Part shown: positions 7,068 to 22,827 of the stretch, piece by piece
Layout: every line of letters starts with the position of its first letter
Position numbering within the stretch: the first letter of the stretch is position 1
Source of the DNA: a virus
Virus record (IMG/VR): IMGVR_UViG_3300047551_003799
Coordinates: 1 to 22,827 of that record
Length of the DNA stretch: 22,827 nt
Direction: 5' to 3' (one strand)
Translations under genes and position numbers: made by a program
The notes under the pieces: model-generated
What the model was told of the DNA's origin: nothing
The model's database searches: none
Seen by the model: only the letters and a program-made list of their open reading frames with translations

Positions 7068-7604
7068 TTAACCGTCACTGCCTTCGGTGGGTGGCCGGTC
7101 TGGGTTAAACCGTTGCATTGGGCCAAACTGAGAGGCATCACCGCCCCTAAGCTCTTGCTCGATTTCCGCAATTTGTCGAGAGTACCGACCCGGAAAAGAT
7201 CGCTCAAGCTGGTTGAGGGATTGAGTCAACCGAGCTAATGCAATCTTGTAACGCTGTTTGTAATATTCTTTGTGGTCGTAAGCGACGCGAGCAAAGTCAA
7301 TCAATTCAGCGTGTTTGGCTTGGATTGACTCGACCCGCTCTTGCTCTCGATCAAGGTCGGCTCGCAATTGAGCAATCGTTTCCCGGTCGGTTGATCGAGC
7401 TGTTTCGACAATGTATCTTTCCCGTTCACTCAGTCGGGACTCCTGAACCTCCCATAGCTCGCGTTTTTGTTGGCGTTGCTTTTCGTTAAACTCTGCAATT
7501 TTGCCCAGGATTGCCCCAAGCCCAGCAAGGATTGCAGTGATTTCGATTGCGTTATCCTTGACAAGTTGAGCGATGTTGTGGGTGTTAGCTGGATCGACTG
7601 ACAT
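7068..7604 (-). CDS. Membrane-anchored coiled-coil protein, possible spanin-like lysis protein
   Basis: I chose the ATG at 7604 (178 aa); a longer frame from a TTG at 7691 would overlap the upstream gene by over 100 bases. One membrane segment (residues about 17-36, ITAILAGLGAILG) near the N-terminus is followed by a long charged coiled coil (about 37-150, many E, R, Q and K heptads) and a Pro-rich end. This is the plan of inner-membrane spanins (Rz type), in which a periplasmic coiled coil spans to the outer membrane; it could instead be a tail-linked or structural protein. The start overlaps the end of the preceding membrane-protein gene by 20 bases. No endolysin is seen nearby, so the lysis role is inference. 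Confidence 0.65.
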   Translation of the reverse strand: MSVDPANTHNIAQLVKDNAIEITAILAGLGAILGKIAEFNEKQRQQKRELWEVQESRLSERERYIVETARSTDRETIAQLRADLDREQERVESIQAKHAELIDFARVAYDHKEYYKQRYKIALARLTQSLNQLERSFPGRYSRQIAEIEQELRGGDASQFGPMQRFNPDRPPTEGSDG

Positions 7605-7953
7605 TATGGAAACGCCGCAATCGTATCGAAGCGGTGGAATTGGACAGGACGTTACTAAAAACGCTCCCAGAAATCCACGCAAAACTCGCAAATCTTAGCC
7701 CTTGCTCTGCCAAGAAAGATTGCAAAGAAATTACGCTCAACACCCCGATCAACAAATACTTCCAGCTACGCCAGACCCACCCAATCCGATAGAATTCCTT
7801 CAGGGTTCTTGCGAGAATTCCTGTCAGGTAGATCCCGGCATAGCCGTACAATTCCCGTTCTGTGACTTCTGGATTAACCGCCGTGACCCCAACCCAGAGA
7901 GCGAGTGAAAGTAGGAGCAGGGGATCGGTCAAAATCCCCCGGACGATGATCAT
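7585..7953 (-). CDS. Small multi-pass membrane protein, possible holin
   Basis: A 122-aa protein with three clear hydrophobic segments (about residues 8-25 LTDPLLLLSLALWVGVTAV, 35-51, 63-81 LLIGVLSVISL) and a weaker fourth (88-104). It ends in a basic, Arg-rich tail (IRLRRFHNVSRSS). Size and topology fit a holin, but no specific family was recognised. Its ATG overlaps the sheath stop codon (TAATG), so it is translationally coupled to a very highly expressed gene, which would be unusual for a lysis timer. It forms a pair with the following coiled-coil protein. Confidence 0.6.
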   Translation of the reverse strand: MIIVRGILTDPLLLLSLALWVGVTAVNPEVTERELYGYAGIYLTGILARTLKEFYRIGWVWRSWKYLLIGVLSVISLQSFLAEQGLRFASFAWISGSVFSNVLSNSTASIRLRRFHNVSRSS

Positions 7954-10031
7954 TAGGCGGCCACCGTCCCCAGCGAAGAGAGTCGCGTGATGTCGATCCG
8001 CTGCTCAAAAACGATCCGTTGCGCCCCTGGCATTGGAGTTACTTCGTAATCGAACCGAACGATTCCCTTGGCTAACTCAGTGGGTGGGTTCTTCCTGCGG
8101 TCGTAAGAGCATTTACCCCAGACGATGGCCCCGAGTGTCACCTGGAAATCCAGAAACGCATTGACCGTGGCCGGCACGTTGGCGATCACCGTGTTGAGGG
8201 GTTGATCAATATAGATGAGGCAAGCCCGTTCGAGTGCGAACTGCATCACGTCCAGAGTGCGGCGTACCGAGACCAAATTCTGGATCTCAGCACTGGCCGG
8301 GTAGCCTGCGGAGTAAGCCCCCCAAGAAACGAACCCGGTCGCATAATCCCGATAGATGGTGCTAATCCCGGCCCCCGTCAGCAGGTTCACTTCGCTGTTC
8401 GGGTCGTTATGCACCGAAGTCAACAACCGCTCCATACCCTGGACTGCGTTTAATTCTTTGTTGGATGGGCTGAACCAGTAGCCAAAATCCAGATCGGTCG
8501 CTGAGGCCATGGCCACCCAACGACGCGAGTAGGGTTCTAGCACTGCCTTGTTGAGCGTGGTATCGAAGGTCTCGACATGGGGATAGCAGAGAACGACCCG
8601 CTCGGATGATGTGAAGAAATTCTCAGCAGGGCCGGCCGATCCGCGTGACTCCAGAGCTTCTTGCACCGTCAGCCCCAAGGGAGCGTCAATCGCTGCAATG
8701 GCCCGCGTGTTTTCCACGTAAGCCTCAAGCGCTTGGGCTACCTCGATTCGGTCTGACCAGCCAGGGGCCGCGACTAGCATGGGTTGGAACCCGAGCCGCT
8801 GCATTGACCCTAACCAAGCCTGAATCCCGGTGCGACTGCCATCATCCAAGGTTTCACCGATGATTTCAGCGCTGGTTACTTCCGAAGGATATTCGTAGGA
8901 AACCGACACTTCAGCATTAGCCGCGATCCGTTGCTGCAATCCGTCAGTAACCCGCGTGATCGTGCCTGCGATAGGATCGATCACATAATCCCGATTTTCC
9001 TCGAACACCACGCTCGGTTCGGTGTAAGACACTCGGATGGCTGCATTGGGTGGAATCAGCCCGCTCGCCACCCGCGTGATCACCCCATCGGCATAGGTGA
9101 AATCATCGCCCAAGGTGTAGGTGGTAAAACCATCCAGGCTCGCAACCGTCCCGATCACCACCTTGGTATAGGTCACTCGCAATCGAGCGCCGGACGGGAT
9201 TGAGCCACCGCCAACCCGGGTAATTACACCCGATGCCACCGTGAAATCCGTGGTCAGTGCGTAGGCCGTGCCCGACAGCGATTCCACCTTGAGGATGTCT
9301 GCGCTGGGTTCCCCGGTGTCGTAGAGGTTGCCGGACGCTCCAATCGTGCGCGTCACCTGTCGAGGCATGGTGATTGAATCAACGCCGGTATCGTAGACCG
9401 CGATCACCGTGCCCAATGCCGGGATCGTGCCGGTCGCCACGCGCGTGATTGTTTGGCCTGTGATTGTGTAATCCGTGGTGAGTGCGTAGGTTGCACCGGC
9501 GGGTGAGCGCAAAGCCACCAACGTTGCCCCGGTCGGTAGCGTCACCGTGCCCGGTGTGCCCACAAAGGTTAGGGATTCTGCGGTGCGAGTCGCGCCCTTG
9601 AATCGGAACGATCCAAGATAACCGGCCGTCCCCTCGATGGCGATTAGGTCGATATTGGCCTCACCTGGCTTGGTTCCTTCCAGCGTCAACACATCGCCAT
9701 CGAAGCTAACGGTTTCAGCCGCAATGTTGAGATGCACCGCCGGATCGAACACATTGATCGCAATAATCAGCCCGCCGCCGTGATCGTCCCGGGCCTTTGC
9801 GTCGTAAGGCAGCGAGTAGCCGGGAAGTCTCGGGCCCAAGTATTGCGCCGCGTCACGGTCGTTGGCAATCAGCACCGGCTCGTTAATCTTGCGATCGCCT
9901 GCGGCCAATTTGTGGATCGGAGCCGTGCCGATGTAACCAATCGTGCTGGTTCGAGTAATCTGAACCGGAACCAAGCCGGTCGGAATTTCTACAAACTGAA
10001 CGCCGCGAATAAATTCACCAATCGAGGCCAT
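7953..10031 (-). CDS. Contractile tail sheath protein with beta-rich module insertion
   Basis: A 692-aa sheath subunit, longer than the usual 390-500. The N-terminus has the sheath signature: FIRGVQFVEIPTGLVPVQ, then TIGYIGTAPIH and VLIANDRDAAQYLG (residues about 7-66), and GGLIIAINVFDP. The C-terminal third matches the conserved sheath core, with LVSVRRTLDVMQFALERAC, a helix (PATVNAFLDFQVTLGAIVWG) and the closing strands EQRIDITRLSSLG. Between them, residues about 180-384 contain four tandem copies of a roughly 35-65-residue module of the form D(Y/F)...(G)xITRV..G.IP....(V/R)VSY. In a sheath this insertion would project outward, so it may decorate the tail surface. ATG start with GAGG about 9 bases upstream. 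Confidence 0.9.
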   Translation of the reverse strand: MASIGEFIRGVQFVEIPTGLVPVQITRTSTIGYIGTAPIHKLAAGDRKINEPVLIANDRDAAQYLGPRLPGYSLPYDAKARDDHGGGLIIAINVFDPAVHLNIAAETVSFDGDVLTLEGTKPGEANIDLIAIEGTAGYLGSFRFKGATRTAESLTFVGTPGTVTLPTGATLVALRSPAGATYALTTDYTITGQTITRVATGTIPALGTVIAVYDTGVDSITMPRQVTRTIGASGNLYDTGEPSADILKVESLSGTAYALTTDFTVASGVITRVGGGSIPSGARLRVTYTKVVIGTVASLDGFTTYTLGDDFTYADGVITRVASGLIPPNAAIRVSYTEPSVVFEENRDYVIDPIAGTITRVTDGLQQRIAANAEVSVSYEYPSEVTSAEIIGETLDDGSRTGIQAWLGSMQRLGFQPMLVAAPGWSDRIEVAQALEAYVENTRAIAAIDAPLGLTVQEALESRGSAGPAENFFTSSERVVLCYPHVETFDTTLNKAVLEPYSRRWVAMASATDLDFGYWFSPSNKELNAVQGMERLLTSVHNDPNSEVNLLTGAGISTIYRDYATGFVSWGAYSAGYPASAEIQNLVSVRRTLDVMQFALERACLIYIDQPLNTVIANVPATVNAFLDFQVTLGAIVWGKCSYDRRKNPPTELAKGIVRFDYEVTPMPGAQRIVFEQRIDITRLSSLGTVAA
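8880..9494 (-). repeat. Four tandem ITRV modules within the sheath gene
   Basis: The four protein modules lie at residues about 182-213, 256-289, 303-337 and 343-382 of the sheath. Shared core: T-D-(Y/F)-T, a Gly turn, ITRV, then G-x-IP and V-x-(Y)T. They are too diverged at DNA level to recombine easily. The same module occurs twice in the gp36-like gene at 11156-11500. Confidence 0.75.
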
Positions 10032-10034
10032 GAG

Positions 10035-10670
10035 CTAATCCTCATCTTTATAGGGAATCGTGAGCAATCGGGGCTTGGGTGGGTTGCCGTTCGGAGTGTG
10101 TGGATTGAGCGGGGGTGACTCAGGATCGTTGGGGTCTGAGAGGGTCGGATCTGGGATGATGGGCCGCCCCGCCGCGTCAAGGTCAGGCTGTCCTGGTGTT
10201 TGCAGGTCAAACAGGATTGCCTTGGCCAGGGGTTCGGGTTCTGGGGTGTTGTCAGCGACAGCCAAGACCGGCACTGAGATTTGTAGGGTGTATTGCCAAA
10301 TCCTGCGAGTGCCCTTGTCGATTCCCTCGTAGGTGGCACGGGTCAAGGCGGCAACCGTTCGAGCGTGTGGCAACCTAGCCCCAATCAACCGGGATTGTGC
10401 GATCGCGACCATCGCTTCGACCGAATCCAGCTCGACATGGCCCAAGGCCACCACCCATAGCGCCTCACCCTTTTGGCTTGGAACCAAGCGGCCCTCGGAT
10501 GTTGCCCACCGGATTTCGTCTAACCCAACCCAGCAATAGCCACGAAACGAGCCTTCTGAAACCTCAGCCTCAGCTAACGGGTTGGGCACTTTGGGCATCA
10601 CCCCAAATGGCTCGAAAGGAACAATCAGGCGATCGATAATCCCAAGCCGCTGGTCAGCAATCCAACTCAT
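10035..10670 (-). CDS. Mu gp37-like tail/connector protein (DUF1834 type)
   Basis: A 211-aa protein immediately before the sheath gene, the position of Mu gp37 (head-tail joining or tail terminator-like). The N-terminal domain has WIADQRLGIIDRLI, FGVMPKVPN and a strand pattern around GHVELDSVEAMVAIAQSRLI, then RIWQYTLQISVPVL. The C-terminal 50 residues are Pro/Asp-rich and likely disordered. I chose the ATG at 10670 because it overlaps the upstream stop (ATGA) and has GAGGGG seven bases before it; a GTG two codons upstream is possible. The assignment rests mainly on position and moderate pattern match. Confidence 0.7.
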   Translation of the reverse strand: MSWIADQRLGIIDRLIVPFEPFGVMPKVPNPLAEAEVSEGSFRGYCWVGLDEIRWATSEGRLVPSQKGEALWVVALGHVELDSVEAMVAIAQSRLIGARLPHARTVAALTRATYEGIDKGTRRIWQYTLQISVPVLAVADNTPEPEPLAKAILFDLQTPGQPDLDAAGRPIIPDPTLSDPNDPESPPLNPHTPNGNPPKPRLLTIPYKDED

Positions 10671-11599
10671 TGCCACCCCTCAAGCCGTCGCTGCGTAAAG
10701 GTTTGAGGTACAGCGCCGTAGGAGATATAGCGGCTATCTAAGCCCGTTCCGAACTCTGGTGGAATTACCCCGCCGCCCTTGCCTTTATCTCGTAATCGAG
10801 ATAGGGCTAGCTCTGCCTGAGTCCAAATGTCTTGCCCCTGTTGCGGGTCAAGGTGGTATCGGGCAAACGAGATCGCAATCCACTGGCGAGAGTCAAACTC
10901 AGGGGTGCTCCCACCCACTGCATTCCACTCCAGGTAAGGGCCGGCTGCTGAGTCGATCACCGCTGTGGCATGTTCGAGGTGGATTGACAACTTGGCCCAA
11001 TCGGGTTCGGTTGCGTAATCCCGTCCCTCTCCATTGCCGTTTTGGGTGAGCCGGGTTGTTTCCTTCAGTCCGATGGCCCTGACAAAATCCGCCGGGGTCG
11101 CGTAGAACCCAGAGAGGTCAATGGCTTCAGGGTCTTCAGGTACGTTCCGCCCAAAGCAGGAATAGGAGATAGCCAACTCATCAGCCACCGGGATGCGGCC
11201 GCTCGGAACCCAGACCAGCTCACCCTTTTCGAGGTCTGCGAAGTAGTCCCCAGCATCACCCGCGATGGCCCGTTGGTAGGGCAGCGGCTCGATTGAACGC
11301 AGCTCAAGGGATTCAATCGGATAGGTCGCCAGTACGCCACCGGACGGGCCAATCAAAACCGGCTCGTTTGCCACCGTCCCCAACACAGTCGAGTAAGTGG
11401 CCAGCAGCACGGCATTGAGAGAAACCCGGCCGTTAGGGAGCCGCGTGATTTCCCCGGTCTCAAGATCGGCCGCGTAGTCCTTATCAGCCACCAGCAGCGA
11501 GTTAGTCGGCAGCACGCGCAAGTCCCAAATCCACTGATGAGGGAGTGAGATCTTGAGTGCGCCGTTAAACGTGCTAGTGATGGTAAAGGTTGCGGCCAT
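10667..11599 (-). CDS. Mu gp36-like (DUF1320) head-tail connector with N-terminal sheath-type modules
   Basis: The C-terminal half (about residues 165-295) shows the DUF1320 plan: FYATPADFVRAIGLKE, LTQNG, then a helix of the form LEHATAVIDSAAGPYLEW, ISFARYHLD and LALSRLRDKGKGGGVIP. DUF1320 proteins (Mu gp36) lie between capsid and sheath genes and act in head-tail joining. The N-terminal 150 residues are additional: two beta modules (about 34-70 and 114-147) with YAADLETGEITRLPNGR and DYFADLEKGELVW(V)PSGRIP. They are the same kind of module inserted four times in the sheath encoded two genes downstream. A normal DUF1320 protein is about 130-150 aa, so this one is roughly doubled. Confidence 0.78.
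   Translation of the reverse strand: MAATFTITSTFNGALKISLPHQWIWDLRVLPTNSLLVADKDYAADLETGEITRLPNGRVSLNAVLLATYSTVLGTVANEPVLIGPSGGVLATYPIESLELRSIEPLPYQRAIAGDAGDYFADLEKGELVWVPSGRIPVADELAISYSCFGRNVPEDPEAIDLSGFYATPADFVRAIGLKETTRLTQNGNGEGRDYATEPDWAKLSIHLEHATAVIDSAAGPYLEWNAVGGSTPEFDSRQWIAISFARYHLDPQQGQDIWTQAELALSRLRDKGKGGGVIPPEFGTGLDSRYISYGAVPQTFTQRRLEGWQ
11156..11500 (-). repeat. Two ITR-type modules in the gp36-like connector gene
   Basis: The N-terminal half of the protein carries two copies of the pattern DY-x-x-D-L-E-x-G-E-(I/L)-x-x-x-P-(N/S)-G-R-(V/I), followed by a hydrophobic strand ending in (T/S)YS. This parallels the sheath modules (DYxx...G.ITRV..G.IP...VSY). Same strand, 1.7 kb upstream of the sheath copies. 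Confidence 0.65.
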
Positions 11600-15682: not shown

Positions 15683-17596
15683 TTACTCAGCCTCAAAAGC
15701 TTGAACCGTACCGACTTCGCACCCGACCAAAACCCGATTAGATCCCGGCTCATAAGCAACATTTTGCGGGCCGGGATCGCACGGAATCCGCTTGATTAGT
15801 GAGGCTGTCGCCAAATCGATTACCGCAAGTTGGTTGTAGCCACGGCAGGCAACATAGGCTTTTCCTGATGGTGCAATTGCCGCCTCGGTCGGTTCCGATC
15901 CAACCCCAATCGTTACGCCACCTGTTGCGGTGTTGCTTGTCGTGTTGATAACAGTCACAGACCCGCCCTCTGAGTTGCAGACGATGGCCTTGCCCAGAGC
16001 GCTGCTGGCCGTCACGTCCGTAGGAGCTTGCCCCACGTTAATTGTCGTGATCACAGCGTTGGTATCTGTGCTCACGACCGTGACAGTGTTGCTGCCTCGG
16101 TTTGCAACAAACAGCAGCGAGCGCCCCGTGTCAATCCCCATCAATCGAGCATCTTGGCCCACTGGCACGTCAGCAACAAAGGCATTAGACGCGGAGTTGT
16201 AGACTTTCACAACGTTGTTGATTGTGGCGTAAATCCGCCCGTTGTGCAGCGCAATTCCCTGTACAAGATTGGCAGTGTTTTCTTCGACGGCGATTACGCT
16301 GTCTGTGTTGTTGATCAGGTCTGTCACCAAGATGGTTGACCCAATCGCACAGTAGACTCGCCCTAGTGCCGCGTTGTACGCGAGAGCACCCGTACCATCG
16401 CGCTGGATGATGTCATACAAAAACTGCTTATCGGATGAGAGCAGCCCGTACTGCAATGCGTAAATGTCTTGAGAGAGCGGAACCTGTCCTACGGTTGCCA
16501 GAGAATCCGCGTCGATCCGGGTCAGGGAATCACTCTTTGAATCGCGCCCGGTTGCCACAAAGATTTGTCCTGGCTCTGCTGGGCAAATTGAGTACAGCCG
16601 TTGCGTGGGAATTGAGCGGATTTCGCCCGGGGTAAACCGAGTAACCAGCCCCCCACCGGAAGACGTTGGAGTAAAAAACTGGGCCTCCCCGATTACCACC
16701 ACATCTTGCCCCTCAAGACTTATTCCGAAGCTGGTAAAGAGAAAGCGGAACCATGCATAGGGCGCAACCGTAGTTGGCACATAAACCCGTGTTTGCTGAG
16801 AGGCAAAAAGCGGCTCGCTGGTGACAGTGTGGAGCGTTACCCACGTGGTTCCATTGGTGCTTCCTTGAAATTGCCAGCCACGGGGCATCTGCATAGGGGC
16901 GACAATCCGAGAGGTTAGGCTATAGCTTCCAACCGATTTGGCGCTCGCGAATTGAACCGTCAGGCTGTAGGTTTCCATTGACGGAGCGCCCGCCCATCCA
17001 TCGTGGGTTGAGCTAATAGCCGGGGGATCGTCTCGATTAAAGGCCATCCACGCCGCATAGCGCCCACTACCCCAATCCCAATTACTGCTACTCGACACAA
17101 CCACCGTTTCGCCGGATACGGGATCGACCTGAATATTGCTGCCGCTAAACTTTGGGATGAGTGGAGCACCCCCGGTTTGTCCGCTGGGCGGCGCAACCTC
17201 CGTGACGGACTGACCTAGTGAGACCGTCCGAGATCGAGGCACGAAAAGCGTTGACTTATTGCTTGCGCCGCTTGGAGTCAACCCGCCCTCTGGCGTAACT
17301 GGCTCGAACCGATTAAGTGCGGCGTTCCACGCGAGCGTGTCTCCATCCTCTACGCCCGTCAGGTCAAAAGACAAGTTAGGTGGGAGGTCTAGCGCGGTCT
17401 TGAGTGAGTCAGGAGTGATGACAACCCACTTGTTGCCTGCTGATTGGTATCGAAGTAAAACACCGTCAGACAGTCCCGTTAGGTCAACCGGGCGGCCTCC
17501 GATCGAGGCTGAAGCATCAATGGCGGATTGCACCGCAGTGGTCAGAGTGTTGAGCGCTTCGGTGTTTTCAGCAAAGCGTTGAGCGATTGTGGACAT
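15683..17596 (-). CDS. Tail fibre/receptor-binding protein with discoidin-like domain and YVTN beta-propeller
   Basis: I chose the ATG at 17596 (637 aa) because AGGAG lies five bases upstream. Domains by eye: an N-terminal helical start; two fibre-type motifs DLTG(L/V)xDGxxLxW/Y (about 38-62 and 78-101); a discoidin/F5-8 type C-like beta-sandwich at about 160-308 (WDWGSGRYAAWMAFN, PRGWQFQGSTNGTTWVTLHT, YAWFRFLFTSF, VIGEAQFF); then about 320-637 a run of blades with YVTN-type motifs (LLFVANRGSNTVTVVSTDTN, KAIVCNSEGGSVTVIN, KAYVACRGYNQLAVID). Such domains bind glycans or cell-surface ligands, so this is a strong candidate receptor binder. It follows the P2 gpH-type collar protein, as the distal fibre part would. 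The propeller is unusual on a phage tail. Confidence 0.8.
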   Translation of the reverse strand: MSTIAQRFAENTEALNTLTTAVQSAIDASASIGGRPVDLTGLSDGVLLRYQSAGNKWVVITPDSLKTALDLPPNLSFDLTGVEDGDTLAWNAALNRFEPVTPEGGLTPSGASNKSTLFVPRSRTVSLGQSVTEVAPPSGQTGGAPLIPKFSGSNIQVDPVSGETVVVSSSSNWDWGSGRYAAWMAFNRDDPPAISSTHDGWAGAPSMETYSLTVQFASAKSVGSYSLTSRIVAPMQMPRGWQFQGSTNGTTWVTLHTVTSEPLFASQQTRVYVPTTVAPYAWFRFLFTSFGISLEGQDVVVIGEAQFFTPTSSGGGLVTRFTPGEIRSIPTQRLYSICPAEPGQIFVATGRDSKSDSLTRIDADSLATVGQVPLSQDIYALQYGLLSSDKQFLYDIIQRDGTGALAYNAALGRVYCAIGSTILVTDLINNTDSVIAVEENTANLVQGIALHNGRIYATINNVVKVYNSASNAFVADVPVGQDARLMGIDTGRSLLFVANRGSNTVTVVSTDTNAVITTINVGQAPTDVTASSALGKAIVCNSEGGSVTVINTTSNTATGGVTIGVGSEPTEAAIAPSGKAYVACRGYNQLAVIDLATASLIKRIPCDPGPQNVAYEPGSNRVLVGCEVGTVQAFEAE

Positions 17597-17604
17597 AGAG
17601 ACTC

Positions 17605-18126
17605 CTAGAGGGTTGCAAGCTTGAGAGATTGACGGATCAGGATCCCGATCTTGGTCATGTCGAGTGTGTTTTGCACCAACCAAGGCACATCGCAGAGCAT
17701 GGTCAGGTCGTTGCCGTCATCGGTGATCGTGATGGCTTCCACCGGCAAACCCGAGAGGGCCAGCGTGATTTCCACCAGCAGGTCAGTTACGGCCACGGAC
17801 TTATAGAGCAGGGGCGGGGTTGACCGGGCGGCGACCGCGAAAAGCTCACCCGTGTCCAGAAACACCCCAACCTCTGTGACCGCAGCTTCTAGCGCCGGGT
17901 CGGTTAGATACCCCGCGATTGAGACTTCATTTGGGCCTGAGTCTGTCCAATCTGAGACGGCAAACCGGGCGATCTCAGTCTTTAGGGCTGTCTCGGTTCC
18001 GGTGGGTGGGGTCGGGTAAGCCCCTGTACCAATGGCGATTTCGGTGATCTGGACTTGTAGCCCCGCAATCCTTGCGTCGGTTGCCGCTTGGATGCCTGCG
18101 TTTGTGATTAATGCCGGGATGCTCAT
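17605..18126 (-). CDS. Tail-collar fibre protein, P2 gpH N-terminal type
   Basis: A 173-aa protein matching the N-terminal domain of P2 gpH-type fibres (PF12571 type), which attaches the fibre to the baseplate. Family features: ALITNAGIQAATDARIAG, TEIAIGTGAYPTPPTG, then a strand run (VSIAGYLTDPALEAAVTEVG, VFLDTGELFAVAARSTPP, LLVEITLALSGL). It lacks the long distal part of gpH; the next gene supplies a large fibre-like protein, so the fibre appears to be split over two genes. Start ATG overlaps the upstream stop (ATGA). Confidence 0.85.
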   Translation of the reverse strand: MSIPALITNAGIQAATDARIAGLQVQITEIAIGTGAYPTPPTGTETALKTEIARFAVSDWTDSGPNEVSIAGYLTDPALEAAVTEVGVFLDTGELFAVAARSTPPLLYKSVAVTDLLVEITLALSGLPVEAITITDDGNDLTMLCDVPWLVQNTLDMTKIGILIRQSLKLATL

Positions 18127-18512
18127 AGGGCAATAAAGTGATTTTGCGCGGTCTCGATTAATGCGGCCTTGATGCTCTCTGTTTCAGCGGTTCCAATGAG
18201 GTCTAGTTGGGCAAAATAAAACGCGATTGCTGACTGAAACGCCGCGATTTCTTCAGGTTCAACACCTCCATGACAGCAAAAATCAATCGCGGAATTGAGC
18301 TTGCTATCTGCTACGGCAATGCTCGGGTTTTGCAAGGCAAGAGACACGGCTAAAGCGTATTCGGGAGATGCAAGTACGGCGCGGCGAAACGACAACCACT
18401 GATAGGCGGAGTCCACCCGAAGCAAGTGTTCATGTTGGGCTTGCTCTGGGGTTTGTCCGTTAGGAATGCCGATTTCAAAAACTAATCCGTTGTGGGTGAA
18501 TTGGTGCAGCAT
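18123..18512 (-). CDS. Small helical protein downstream of the main fibre gene, possible tail-fibre chaperone
   Basis: A 129-aa protein with an N-terminal strand (HQFTHNGLVFEIGI) and then helices (SFRRAVLASPEYALAVSLAL, FQSAIAFYFAQLDLIG, IKAALIETAQNHFIAL). Family not recognised. Its position right after the 588-aa fibre and its tight coupling (ATGA at both ends) are those of a tail-fibre assembly protein. It may be a diverged relative of the 157-aa protein after the second fibre gene. Alternative: a structural fibre adaptor. Confidence 0.55.
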   Translation of the reverse strand: MLHQFTHNGLVFEIGIPNGQTPEQAQHEHLLRVDSAYQWLSFRRAVLASPEYALAVSLALQNPSIAVADSKLNSAIDFCCHGGVEPEEIAAFQSAIAFYFAQLDLIGTAETESIKAALIETAQNHFIAL

Positions 18513-20278
18513 CAGGCTTCTACGTCTCCAAAAAACTCGACTTCCTGTGCCGGGAAAAAGTTAGCCCCACCCGAGCTAGGGCCGTTTAATTGCCAAATCA
18601 TCGTGTTACCCCAGGTCGGATCATTAAAGATGTAGGGGCCATAGTAAGTATTCATTGTGTTGACGGCGGTTTGATTGGATCGGGTGTCAACGATTGCCAA
18701 AGATGAAATGTCCTGTCCGTTGACTAGTGCGGTGGTATTGCCCGCCCTGTTTTGCCAGTTGCGCGGCAAGTGCAAGCTGCCACTCGTATCGCCCCGCGTC
18801 TGAAAAATAAAACCCGTAATCCGTACTTGGCGAGGGAATCTCCACCCAAACCACGACCCAGCCGCATTGGAGGTAACAACATCCTGCCCGCTCGCCACCC
18901 GATCGCTCAACTGCTGAGGCGTACCCGAACCCATCGCACTGGCCGCCGCTGTTACCGTGGCGGCCCCTGTCGTTGGATTTTGCCAAGTTCCACCCCCCTG
19001 TTCGATCCCAAAAAGATGCAGGATCCCCCCGGCACTTCGGGGATTTGAGGGGTTGTTGGATAAAGGTGTGCCGTTGTAGGTAAAGGTCAAAATACCTTCG
19101 CAGCCCTGTGCGATCCAGTTACCCCCGTTCGCAACAAAAATCCCGCGCTGTCCTGGCAAAATCAACACTGCGTTTTGAGCGGTGATTGCCGCACCGGATG
19201 GGGTAACCCCTGAGATTGTGGCCGCTCCACCTCGATTGACTCTGATTGCCGCCGTCGTGTCGTTGATGATCTGGTGCGAGCCTGACACCGACGCGGGCAA
19301 GGTCAATTCCGTTACGCCGGTATCGGCCACGCAATTTTCGTTGGTGGCGAGCGTGGCGTTAGCAGTGCGTACCGTCCAAGTCAGGTTTCCACCCGCTGGC
19401 GAGGCCCAAACGATTGCGGATCCGTCAAAGCTCACCACTTGCCCGGTCGTTGCACCACTACTCGAAAGCTTAGTGAGGGCTAGGGTTGGGATCTGGGCGG
19501 ATGGGATCAGGATTGATGCGTCCAAAGAGGCCACGCCGTTAGCCGCGCCCCTGTCTGTCGTATTGATTTTGCCCGCAAGAGCTGCAATCAGTCCCGTGAC
19601 TTCCGATTGGGCGATGGATGACCATGCCCCATCACCGCGCAAAAAGTTTGTGGCCGATGGTGTGCCGGTTCCGAGTCGCGCGGCTGAAAATACACCGCTT
19701 ACGATATCGGCAGCCGCTAAAACGACCGCTCCGATTTTGCCAGCCACTGACGTGACCGGGATCGACACCTCTGGTCTTTGGAGTAGGGATAGTTTGCCGT
19801 CAGCCCCAAGCGTGGCCACGCCGTTGGATGCACCCAATGCAGACGATTCAACTTTGGCGTTCAGAGCTGATTGCAGCCCCGTTACAGACGAAATGGAGTG
19901 CAGGTGAGCACTAGGAGCCTTGCCATCCAAGACCGATTGCAGCCCCGAGACCCTGGCAATCGTGGGGTTTGCAATATCCGGGGGGATTTGCTCCGAGGGG
20001 ACTACCCCGGCTCCATCCAAAGTGGCAAAACCATTGGGCTGCCCACGTCCCTGGATGTCGGTGGGGGCGTGTTGGTGGATCGAGGGAGCCTTGCCCGCGA
20101 CTTGGGATTCAAGGGTGCTAAGGTCAGCACCAATGCCTAACTCTCCCTTGATATCCCCCCAAGTTACGGTCTTCTCGAACGCGCCGGGCCTCGAAATCAA
20201 GACGCGATCACCATCATCAAGACCAGCGCCGGGCAAGGTCTCAAGATCGCTAACCGTGATGTCAAATTCTTGGGGCAT
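18512..20278 (-). CDS. Tail fibre protein with repeats and a discoidin-like tip
   Basis: A 588-aa fibre. The N-terminal domain (about 1-50, DITVSDLETLPGAGLDDGDR) resembles baseplate-attachment ends of fibres. About 50-290 carries fibre repeats: G-x-(S/A/P)-NG-(V/F)-A-(T/S)-L at three places and VTGLQSALNAK-type heptads with H-x-H. The middle has GAVVLAAADIVSG-type and 'S.AT.FLRGDGAWSS' segments seen in other phage fibres. The C-terminal 180 residues form a separate beta domain (SWFGWRFPRQVRITGFIFQT, RNWQNRAG, MIWQLNGPSSGG) similar in plan to a discoidin-like carbohydrate-binding sandwich, the probable receptor-binding tip. TAATG coupling to the preceding gpI-type gene. Confidence 0.85.
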   Translation of the reverse strand: MPQEFDITVSDLETLPGAGLDDGDRVLISRPGAFEKTVTWGDIKGELGIGADLSTLESQVAGKAPSIHQHAPTDIQGRGQPNGFATLDGAGVVPSEQIPPDIANPTIARVSGLQSVLDGKAPSAHLHSISSVTGLQSALNAKVESSALGASNGVATLGADGKLSLLQRPEVSIPVTSVAGKIGAVVLAAADIVSGVFSAARLGTGTPSATNFLRGDGAWSSIAQSEVTGLIAALAGKINTTDRGAANGVASLDASILIPSAQIPTLALTKLSSSGATTGQVVSFDGSAIVWASPAGGNLTWTVRTANATLATNENCVADTGVTELTLPASVSGSHQIINDTTAAIRVNRGGAATISGVTPSGAAITAQNAVLILPGQRGIFVANGGNWIAQGCEGILTFTYNGTPLSNNPSNPRSAGGILHLFGIEQGGGTWQNPTTGAATVTAAASAMGSGTPQQLSDRVASGQDVVTSNAAGSWFGWRFPRQVRITGFIFQTRGDTSGSLHLPRNWQNRAGNTTALVNGQDISSLAIVDTRSNQTAVNTMNTYYGPYIFNDPTWGNTMIWQLNGPSSGGANFFPAQEVEFFGDVEA

Positions 20279-21117
20279 TAGATTGAAGACCCAGTGACAG
20301 GCAAATCAAGGGAAATGCGCTCACCCGACTGGAAACCCAGCCGTAGCCCCGATTGAGTCGAAACTACGGTCGGGATCTTAGGAGTCGAGACCGCAAGCTT
20401 AACGGTGATCCGTTTTGAACCACCTATAGCTAGTTTGGCTTTAGGGCGTGGGATCCCGGCGTTAACCCGAACGACTGACGTGAGCCGCTTGGACGCGGCG
20501 ATTTTTACCCCAAGAGCGATCACCGTAGGACGCGAAGGGACGGCCGCGAGGATTTGCAGTACAGCAGAGACCCGCTTGGATGCTCCGAGCCTGGATATTG
20601 GGGCACGGGGACGGCTGGCGATTGCAATTTCAAAGCCCGACCGAGCGGGCTTGGCCGCTTCCACAAGCTGGTAGACCTTGGCCCAAAACTCAGGAGATTC
20701 CACATCAAAGCGCGGGTCGGTTGGCAGCCCCTCACCATTGATCGCGACCCTGAAGGTGTGGACTTGCCGCTTGGGTGTGGACTGCCACCATTCAGAGACC
20801 ACCGATTCAGTGATGCCCAGAATTCCCAAGGCCCGTCGCACCGCGTGTAATGTTCCCTTGTATCGGTGCAACTCAATCGAGCGCCAAATTAGCTCGCGAT
20901 ACTCAGCCTCAGTCATCCCCGGTACGACAAATTCTTGGGCTGAAAACTGACGGATCAGCGAGGGAATCGCAGAGCTAACCACCCGGTCAACGTCGTAGAC
21001 AATCGCTCTTTCAATCGGCAGATTCTCTAACCCGTTGATCAGTTGCCATAGGGCTTGGGTGCGTTCATCTTGAGCGATGGATGGCTGGATAATTCGGCTA
21101 TCAAATCGTTCGCTCAT
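20278..21117 (-). CDS. I: Baseplate/tail protein I (P2 gpI type) with C-terminal repeats
   Basis: A 279-aa protein. Residues 1-180 follow the gpI family: ALWQLINGLENLPIERAIVY, an arginine-centred helix (EYRELIWRSIELHRYKGTLH, with the conserved H-R-x-K-GT), AVRRALGILGI, and then the strand with SEWWQSTPKRQVHTFRVAI. gpI works with gpJ at the baseplate edge, holding the fibres. The C-terminal 100 residues are extra and contain three copies of a unit with SKR (ASKRVSAVLQ, ASKRLTSVVR, GSKRITVKLA) about 25 residues apart, suggesting a fibrous or beta-strand extension. The neighbour order is portal then I then fibre, without the usual V/W/J genes before I. Confidence 0.85.
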   Translation of the reverse strand: MSERFDSRIIQPSIAQDERTQALWQLINGLENLPIERAIVYDVDRVVSSAIPSLIRQFSAQEFVVPGMTEAEYRELIWRSIELHRYKGTLHAVRRALGILGITESVVSEWWQSTPKRQVHTFRVAINGEGLPTDPRFDVESPEFWAKVYQLVEAAKPARSGFEIAIASRPRAPISRLGASKRVSAVLQILAAVPSRPTVIALGVKIAASKRLTSVVRVNAGIPRPKAKLAIGGSKRITVKLAVSTPKIPTVVSTQSGLRLGFQSGERISLDLPVTGSSI

Positions 21118-21120
21118 GCC

Positions 21121-22827
21121 CTATTCTCCTAAGTCAAAATAGGAGCGATTAGCGTCGTCGTATCCGAGCCATTCGTTCAGGTGACGCAAGGTTTCTTCGT
21201 CGTTTGGTAGTGGCGTGATTTCCCCATCATAATCAGCACCCACCGGCTCCAAAGAATGACCACAATTAAACGCAGAGGGCGGGCAAGCTTTCGCCCAAAA
21301 CTCAGGATCGTTCGGGAAAACTTTACCCTCTAATGCTGTGTGGGATTCACGCGGGTTTTGGGCCTCACGGATGCGGATATATCTGACATAGGGCGCACCT
21401 TGAATTGATCGCCATACCTCACGTCGGCGCTGTTGCTCCTGTTGCAATCGCTCGATAGATAGAGCGTCAAAAGTAAGGGCGTTTAATGCAGGATTAGGCT
21501 GATCAGAAATAGGTTGATTGCTATCACCAGCAAGGGCGGGATCAGGGTTTTCAACTCTCCCCACGGGTCGTAGTGAAACATCGGAATTCTCTTCCTTGGG
21601 TGCAAATTTCACCCCATAGATTTCCTCGCAGTAAGTTGGGTCTAAAAGTAGTCCGGTTGCCTGCGATAGTTTTTGATCTCGATCCGCTCGCTCGGTTAGA
21701 TTCTCGACATCATCAAAGTCACGCCAAATTGTTGGCGGTTTGGCCGATGGCATGTTGAGCCGCACAATCCATTCAGCCAGGGTATTTAGCACCCCATAGC
21801 TAAGAGCGTCGGCATCGGCTTTTGCTAACCGCATTGCCACCCGTTCAGCCACTTCATCACGGGCCCGCGATCCGCCGCCTTGGGACTGATTGACTAATGC
21901 CGTTTGCCCACCGATGAGCCTTGAGATTTGCGAATCTAGGTATTCGCACATTTCCTGCTGAATCGCTCGATCACTTCGCGACGACTCAAGGAAATCCAAC
22001 ACCACACCATCGGGGGCGATTAAGTGATGCTCGGGTGCGAAGATTTCTAGAAACGCCTGCACCTCTTTATAGATGGGGTGGTTTTGGTCAACACCGGCCG
22101 GCATGATCGCCCTGATCAAGGCCGCGGCCCGGGCCACTGCAACCAACCAATCCTTAAGAGCATCTTTTTTAAATTCTGCGAACCACCAAAGAGCCGATCC
22201 GATTCCACTGCCGTAGGGGTTGCCCGACTGTGACCCCCACGAATGGATCAGGATCCGGTAAGGCTGGGTCAAGAATTCCCCTCGAAAAGGGTTTGACTTG
22301 GTGAGGATTTTGATCGCGTAGTCTTGGTGGGTTTGGGCGTTCCGAGGCGTTTCGCTCGTGACCAGGTCGAACTTAATCCGGCGTGAGGGGACGGGCCGCA
22401 ATGAATCGATCTTCCAGCCCGAACCATCCCGCGCCCATCGCACCTCGATTGGCTTGTACCCGTAGAGGATTGCTGACAGCCAGGCCAAACAGGCCGCGTC
22501 AAAATTTACCGAAGCCGGAGCGCCCGCCTGCCGTTCTTTCCCCGCCCAACGAATCCCCAGCAATTGTTGTTCGACTAACTCAGCGGCCTTGCGATCAACC
22601 CTGCGATCTGATGCAGGGATCACGCGCACCTCGCGTCCGATTACCGCTTGGAAACGATTTTCCAGGCAGGCTCGAACATGCGGATCATTCAGCAGCTTCT
22701 CGTACTTGGAAACGTCCGAGCCAAGCTGTCGAGATAGCAGCGTATCTTCGAGCGGGATAGCTCCATCGGCTAACCAAAGTTTCGGGTCGTTTTCAAAACC
22801 AATCAGACGACGGGCGGCGGTTCGCAT
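21121..22827 (-). CDS. Portal protein (Mu gp29/DUF935 type) fused to a MuF-like C-terminus
   Basis: A 568-aa protein starting at the window edge; the ATG is plausible but its ribosome site is out of view. The N-terminal two-thirds match the DUF935 portal family of Mu: YEKLLNDPHVRACLENRFQA, AELVEQQLLGI, YGYKPIEVRWA, RILIHSWGSQSGNPYGSGIG (conserved NPYG.G) and LIGGQTALVNQSQGGGSRAR. From about residue 467 the sequence is a MuF-type tail (REVWRSIQGAPYVRYIRIR, SHTALEGKVF, ACPPSAFNCGHSLEP). In Mu, gp29 and gp30 (F) are separate genes; here portal and the terminal part of the F domain are on one chain. The usual NCxC motif reads NCGHS, so the second Cys is replaced by His. The stop lies 3 bases before the next start. 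Confidence 0.9.
   Translation of the reverse strand: MRTAARRLIGFENDPKLWLADGAIPLEDTLLSRQLGSDVSKYEKLLNDPHVRACLENRFQAVIGREVRVIPASDRRVDRKAAELVEQQLLGIRWAGKERQAGAPASVNFDAACLAWLSAILYGYKPIEVRWARDGSGWKIDSLRPVPSRRIKFDLVTSETPRNAQTHQDYAIKILTKSNPFRGEFLTQPYRILIHSWGSQSGNPYGSGIGSALWWFAEFKKDALKDWLVAVARAAALIRAIMPAGVDQNHPIYKEVQAFLEIFAPEHHLIAPDGVVLDFLESSRSDRAIQQEMCEYLDSQISRLIGGQTALVNQSQGGGSRARDEVAERVAMRLAKADADALSYGVLNTLAEWIVRLNMPSAKPPTIWRDFDDVENLTERADRDQKLSQATGLLLDPTYCEEIYGVKFAPKEENSDVSLRPVGRVENPDPALAGDSNQPISDQPNPALNALTFDALSIERLQQEQQRRREVWRSIQGAPYVRYIRIREAQNPRESHTALEGKVFPNDPEFWAKACPPSAFNCGHSLEPVGADYDGEITPLPNDEETLRHLNEWLGYDDANRSYFDLGE

Follow-up and report, generated by a model that had tools for sequence, protein, structure and literature searches.

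The DNA analysed, called the window here, is the entire virus record IMGVR_UViG_3300047551_003799 (22827 bases), and is part of the genome of a Mu-like, contractile-tailed phage. Its minus strand carries the genes of a portal of Mu type, a protease, a cement protein, the major capsid protein, a gp36-like adaptor, gp37, sheath, tube, tape measure and gpU. The portal protein (21121-22827, minus strand; Portal_Mu E 1e-66) apparently carries a fused C-terminal minor head part similar to Mu gpF (Phage_Mu_F E 3e-4). In Mu, the Tail_P2_I gene (gp48) and the tail-fibre genes are located at the end of the tail module. In the window, a Tail_P2_I (Mu gp48-like) gene and a tail-fibre cassette (17605-21117, minus strand) are placed upstream of the head genes, between the portal and a virion-morphogenesis gene. 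A 666-aa protein encoded at 15683-17683 (minus strand) features a discoidin-like (F5/8 type C) stretch and beta-propeller-like repeats, both Pfam matches being weak, and is a candidate receptor-binding protein. Two small ORFs (7068-7953, minus strand), by eye one membrane-bound and one coiled-coil, separate the sheath and tube genes; neither gave a convincing family match, and lysis genes are one possibility.

Copies of the same module are found in two of the structural proteins, the tail sheath and the head-tail connector (Table 1). The sheath core resides at both ends of the protein, the PHROG 23 match spanning residues 4-686, and the protein is also matched by Pfam Phage_sheath_1 (E 2e-8, 34.8 bits vs. 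a cut-off of 31.4) and by the pyocin sheath 3J9Q (E 4e-30). The connector scores below the cut-off of Pfam Phage_Mu_Gp36 (PF07030; E 0.016, 15.8 vs. 24.7 bits), and is matched by an alignment of ordinary gp36 proteins with E 6e-5 and a probability of 64% (hhalign). Its gene sits between those of the capsid and gp37 proteins, consistent with the gp36 gene order, gp37 being the sole gene that separates it from the sheath gene. Weak but concordant matches, together with gene order, point to a gp36-like adaptor.

Table 1. Sheath, connector and module copies in the window, and module-bearing genes of three other prophages (window positions unless a locus is named)
Feature	Positions	Strand	Length or residues	Evidence
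Tail sheath protein, P2/Mu type, gpFI-like	7953-10031	minus	692 aa	PHROG 23 tail sheath, E 2e-74
Expanded outer sheath region, holding four modules	8862-9722	minus	about 104-390	alignment with the one-copy sheaths of L014, L015 and PhiKM
Sheath module 1, full length	9387-9584	minus	150-215	whole-domain profile, 29.7 bits
Sheath module 2, nearly full length	9162-9347	minus	229-290	whole-domain profile, 30.0 bits
Sheath module 3, C-terminal part only	9018-9149	minus	295-338	whole-domain profile, 33.7 bits
Sheath module 4, C-terminal part only	8886-9014	minus	340-382	whole-domain profile, 27.0 bits
Connector, putative gp36-like head-tail adaptor (DUF1320/Phage_Mu_Gp36 type)	10667-11599	minus	310 aa	PHROG 195 head-tail adaptor, E 8e-5
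Connector module 1	11384-11593	minus	3-72	whole-domain profile, 26.4 bits, positions 8-72 of 75
Connector module 2	11150-11371	minus	about 77-150	whole-domain profile, residues 118-147, 12.9 bits
gp36 domain of the connector	10670-11113	minus	163-310	alignment with ordinary gp36 of other Mu-like phages
Cement-like and gp37-like genes with module, L105	3258-3956, 5938-6777
Cement-like and gp37-like genes with module, L113	243-941, 2642-3481
Cement-like and gp37-like genes with module, L132	3572-4270, 5970-6809

The module is a unit of about 70 residues. Its leading part has the consensus E..TF.....I.L.H..v..v.vk...g, its C-terminal part the consensus tY..gtDYtvd...G.Itr...G.I..ga.v.vsY. A preliminary description of this DNA had placed four copies in the sheath (residues 180-384, window 8880-9494 of the minus strand, in the 692-aa ORF 7953-10031) and two in the connector (residues 34-147, window 11159-11500 of the minus strand, in the 310-aa ORF 10667-11599). 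These coordinates are correct; of each unit, the C-terminal 40 residues had been noticed.

A profile made from the sheath copies only gives 15-23 bits to the connector and its relatives, the maximum reached in 4000 shuffles of connector N-termini being 9.4 bits; none of the other window proteins scores above 4.1 bits. To avoid circularity, a second profile was built from 52 modules of other phages, with no sequence of the window clade. It gives 119 bits to the sheath (four copies) and 29-41 bits to the connectors (two copies each), the shuffle maximum being 8.2 bits. A whole-domain profile of 75 positions, also made without window-clade sequences, assigns 42-50 bits to the connectors vs. a shuffle maximum of 7.0, and among 8433 ORFs matches only sheaths, gp37-like and cement-like proteins, and the window-clade connector. 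The presence of the same module four times in the sheath and twice in the connector, as originally claimed, is thus recovered by profiles to which the window clade did not contribute. Among the best 60 of 8433 ORFs scored with a connector-only profile, connectors are followed only by module-bearing sheaths and gp37-like proteins (best E beyond connectors, 1e-10). The profile-profile comparison suggested in the preliminary description was carried out by hhalign of the two domain alignments, and gave a probability of 97% and E 2e-11. At the sequence level, the six copies are confirmed as members of one domain family. Searches of the phage collection by tblastn returned nothing meaningful when the connector and the window sheath modules 2-3 were used as queries, and did find matches when the query was the module of another phage. 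A first genome scan, with the sheath alignment, gave no relative; a second one gave 80 loci.

The first strands are missing from sheath modules 3 and 4, which are perhaps not domains in their own right. The sheaths of L014 and L015, 41-42% identical to the window sheath, and the sheath of phage PhiKM carry one module at the identical site, directly N-terminal of the subtilisin-like domain. Counted over the distinct sheath sequences of 380 aa or more from the collected loci, one module is found in 77, two in 6, four in 4, and none in 46, the last figure being an upper bound because some diverged Firmicutes-type sheaths (e.g. that of L140) hide a visible module-like stretch which goes undetected. 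A genome yielded a further two-copy sheath, L181. Sheaths of 409 aa truly lack the module region; those of about this size are a natural zero-copy control. They reside in L049-L061 and in prophages of Gastranaerophilales bins (L086, L090), and are up to 72% identical to one-copy sheaths. In the 608-aa sheaths of L045 (7001-8827), L047 (5513-7339) and L048 (7001-8827), the module is seemingly split by an unrelated insert of about 90 residues, profile matches being found at residues 101-137 and 224-296. No four-copy sheath was present in 386 sampled genomes of the phylum to which one relative, a Sericytochromatia bin, belongs; among the loci retrieved from this sample the maximum is two modules.

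In P2/Mu-type sheaths, the module is hence best described as a resident outer domain of variable copy number, with four copies here and one in most relatives. The notion of an add-on shared by two proteins holds insofar as one family is found in two structural proteins, but the sheath module is not foreign, most relatives having one copy there. Foreign insertion into the sheath was accordingly rejected, as relatives carry one copy in the same place. Sheath module 4 scores 89 with the single copies of other phages, 30-53 with modules 1-3. Being closer to those single copies, and having kept the junction, it is the probable descendant of the ancestral copy. Modules 1-3 are no more similar to each other than to copies found in other phages, and tandem duplication and capture are therefore indistinguishable as their origin.

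The two connector modules fill the entire extension N-terminal to the gp36 domain. Each of the four distinct connectors of the window clade has two, and none of the 76 ordinary gp36 ORFs of the collected loci has any, the connector copies being lineage-specific to the window clade. Connector module 2 is the weakest copy in the window; the orthologous stretch of the relative L004 scores 28.6 bits. Its first half was assigned by position and by alignment with copy 1. Of four connector copies tested, three score higher with modules of other phages than with the sheath copies of the same clade (best rank of an own-clade copy, 18-35 of 60); for the fourth, an own-clade sheath copy is ahead by one point.

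Searches with the module detected it in further phage structural proteins. The loci L105, L113 and L132 are Mu-like prophages of Binataceae/Deltaproteobacteria bins. In all three, the module is found in a cement-like protein encoded before the capsid gene, and again at the C-terminus of a gp37-like protein encoded before the sheath (Pfam Gp37 E 3e-30 in L132); the sheaths of L105 and L113 have two modules each. In annotated phages the module resides in major tail proteins, in a capsid-protease fusion and in sheaths. A Wolbachia phage protein with a baseplate-family N-terminus also carries it. Domain shuffling, as proposed in the preliminary description, is a fair term, since the family spans two structural proteins here and, in other phages, a cement protein, a gp37-like terminator, a tail tube and the capsid-protease fusion.

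PHROG 807 (major tail protein with Ig-like domain) and NCBIfam tail_tube_6XGR (NF052337) cover the module centrally, at about positions 92-177. PHROG 807 matches the sheath insert with E 5e-4, and the modules of other phage proteins with E 1e-5 to 9e-12 at profile positions of about 95-177; tail_tube_6XGR matches the cement and gp37 modules of other phages with E 2-3e-12, matches which stay under the whole-protein cut-off because one domain alone is in common. A Loktanella phage protein of PHROG 807 is in turn homologous to YSD1_22 (PDB 6XGR; E 2e-48). A direct search of PDB sequences with the family profile did not return 6XGR, and the window copies therefore link to domain 2 of YSD1_22 via intermediates. 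Through these, the profiles assign the modules to one family with domain 2 of the YSD1/chi tail-tube protein. This domain has been described as a DE-variant Ig-like beta-sandwich, a fold of two 3-stranded sheets, and as a latch round adjacent subunits, burying 950 A2 each (PMC7385642). Classical Ig families of Pfam (I-set, Big_1/Big_2, FN3), searched at E up to 1, were found in none of the sheath, the connector and eight module proteins of other phages. The window modules and YSD1_22 domain 2 are alike in that both are beta domains of about 70-80 residues inserted in a tail protein, and belong to the same sequence family via intermediate profiles. They differ in arrangement, the domain being found in single copy in the tail tube of a siphophage, in tandem here, four times in the sheath and twice in the adaptor of a phage with a contractile tail.

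An AF2 model of sheath residues 92-411 is all-beta up to where the subtilisin-like domain begins (mean pLDDT 80, pTM 0.53) and features a repeating strand pattern, the copies being four-stranded beta units. In the model of the whole connector, the N-terminus has a pLDDT of about 30, too poor for use, and the fold common to sheath and connector copies rests on sequence profiles for this reason. For the expectation of one fold in all six copies, the models are consequently informative on the sheath half. Foldseek lists obtained with the whole sheath fragment are mostly global misalignments (rmsd over 15 A), 6XGR itself being present as a global low-score match only, and two local matches to T5-type necks alone were used. 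Both are to head completion proteins, those of DT57C and T5, with a probability of 0.99, an rmsd of 2.6-2.7 A across about 70 columns and an E of about 0.3. In these proteins, domain DII (8HQO_P, 9ILP_a; residues 44-111) forms a small beta-barrel in contact with the portal, and is thus comparable, as a small beta domain in a dodecameric adaptor. DII is located inside the adaptor, whereas the connector modules are N-terminal, and a search for sequence similarity between DII and the modules detected none.

Compared with the distant relative L004, the sheath insert has a dN/dS of 0.22 and its core one of 0.05-0.06; the connector extension is at 0.45 vs. 0.13 in the gp36 domain. These values are rough because synonymous sites are near saturation. 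With the closer L003, the connector contrast is retained (extension 0.23, gp36 domain 0.07), and the sheath shows none, both insert and C-terminal core being at 0.11. Roughly, then, both module regions evolve faster than the protein cores relative to L004, yet under purifying selection. The extensions are maintained and, at least in the connector, less constrained, as expected of peripheral domains.

With a modest degree of preference, the modules are interpreted as beta-sandwiches of about 70 residues, of the YSD1 domain 2 family, which would brace neighbouring subunits of the sheath and adaptor rings. They would be located outside the tube-contacting core of the sheath and the helical gp36 part of the adaptor, the connector copies presumably sharing the fold of the sheath copies, and would hold adjacent subunits together in both kinds of ring, as YSD1 domain 2 does in the tube ring. 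By this analogy, particle stabilisation would be their likeliest role. According to a published description, additional sheath domains are remote from the tube and may have a stabilising effect (PMC9230969), and domain III of the Mu sheath is an outward-pointing, variable domain (PMC11915804). The local match of the sheath model to the T5/DT57C adaptor domain and the dN/dS contrast with L004 also count in favour of bracing. The equal values of sheath insert and C-terminal core with L003 weigh against it, as does the reported dispensability of extra sheath domains in T4. YSD1 domain 2 acts in a sheathless tube, and identical contacts therefore may not be assumed here.

The main rival to ring bracing, though a rather unlikely one, is surface adhesion, according to which the modules would be weak carbohydrate binders on neck and tail, prolonging the stay at the host envelope before receptor binding. 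Such a role has been put forward in the literature for Ig-like domains of tails and sheaths (PMC9022992, PMC9230969), and the faster divergence of the modules relative to L004 would fit it. The dN/dS values are however all below 1, with no sign of diversifying selection; the family is found also in an adaptor ring, a terminator and a capsid-protease fusion, which are not obvious adsorption sites; and its solved member, YSD1_22 domain 2, was described as a latch.

Neutral accretion is improbable. In this reading, copies lacking any particular function would have built up, through duplication or capture, in a surface loop that tolerates them and at a free N-terminus. The range of sheath copy number, from 0 to 4, speaks for it, as do the additional sheath domains of T4, reported to be dispensable for sheath formation in the work as cited in PMC9230969. 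Against this, the copies are intact in four diverged relatives at dN/dS of 0.1-0.45, which implies purifying selection, although this may reflect the need to fold alone. Even less credit is given to the idea that the connector copies are recent, within-genome copies of sheath modules that would make sheath and neck touch. It would explain the occurrence of the family in both proteins of one clade, with gp37 alone between the genes, but is unsupported, because the modules of other phages outscore the own sheath copies for three of the four connector copies; the other-phage profile likewise scores the connectors higher than the own sheath profile does (29-41 vs. 15-23 bits). Convergence on a common beta-hairpin motif (DY...G.I...v.vY), known also from unrelated beta proteins such as SprA and Gram-positive pilins, is the least probable reading, given that the match of connector copy 1 spans the whole domain, that the best 60 matches of the connector-only profile are module-bearing phage proteins only, and that shuffle controls lie far below the real scores.

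In a speculative extension, considered unlikely, Mu-like phages would reuse one portable latch domain along their whole head-to-tail axis, in cement protein, adaptor, terminator and sheath, copies in different proteins touching each other to form a continuous brace across symmetry-mismatched rings, and copy number tuning stability.

The finding is an unusual arrangement of a known domain, not a new kind of part. The acquisition of Ig-like domains by sheaths has been published (PMC9230969), and phage Ig-like domains have long been recognised as promiscuous (PMC9022992). Sheath types 2 and 3 of Evseev et al. 2022 (PMC9230969) similarly have extra beta-sandwich domains on a conserved sheath core; here, those domains are all copies from a single family that can be traced by sequence, and which is found in the adaptor as well, and while many domains were linked in that study to large genomes, the phage described here is a Mu-like phage with a small genome. 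The Ig-like domains of Fraser et al. 2006, as cited in PMC9022992, are comparable as mobile beta-sandwiches on many kinds of virion proteins; the domain analysed here is shorter and has zero matches to Pfam Ig families, and the five protein classes of Fraser et al., in the form in which they are cited there, include neither sheath nor adaptor. Within the literature searched, two points appear to be new, namely that a single sequence family links chi-type tail tubes with Mu-type sheaths, adaptors, terminators and cement proteins, and that an adaptor carries an extension made of two copies.

A domain described as distinctive of the tail tubes of chi-like siphophages is now tied to the sheaths, adaptors, terminators and cement proteins of Mu-like phages. 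The module profile covers protein regions which are outside Pfam coverage, and sheath homologues with 0, 1, 2 and 4 copies are a natural series in which the effect of extra domains on tail stability or adsorption may be followed.
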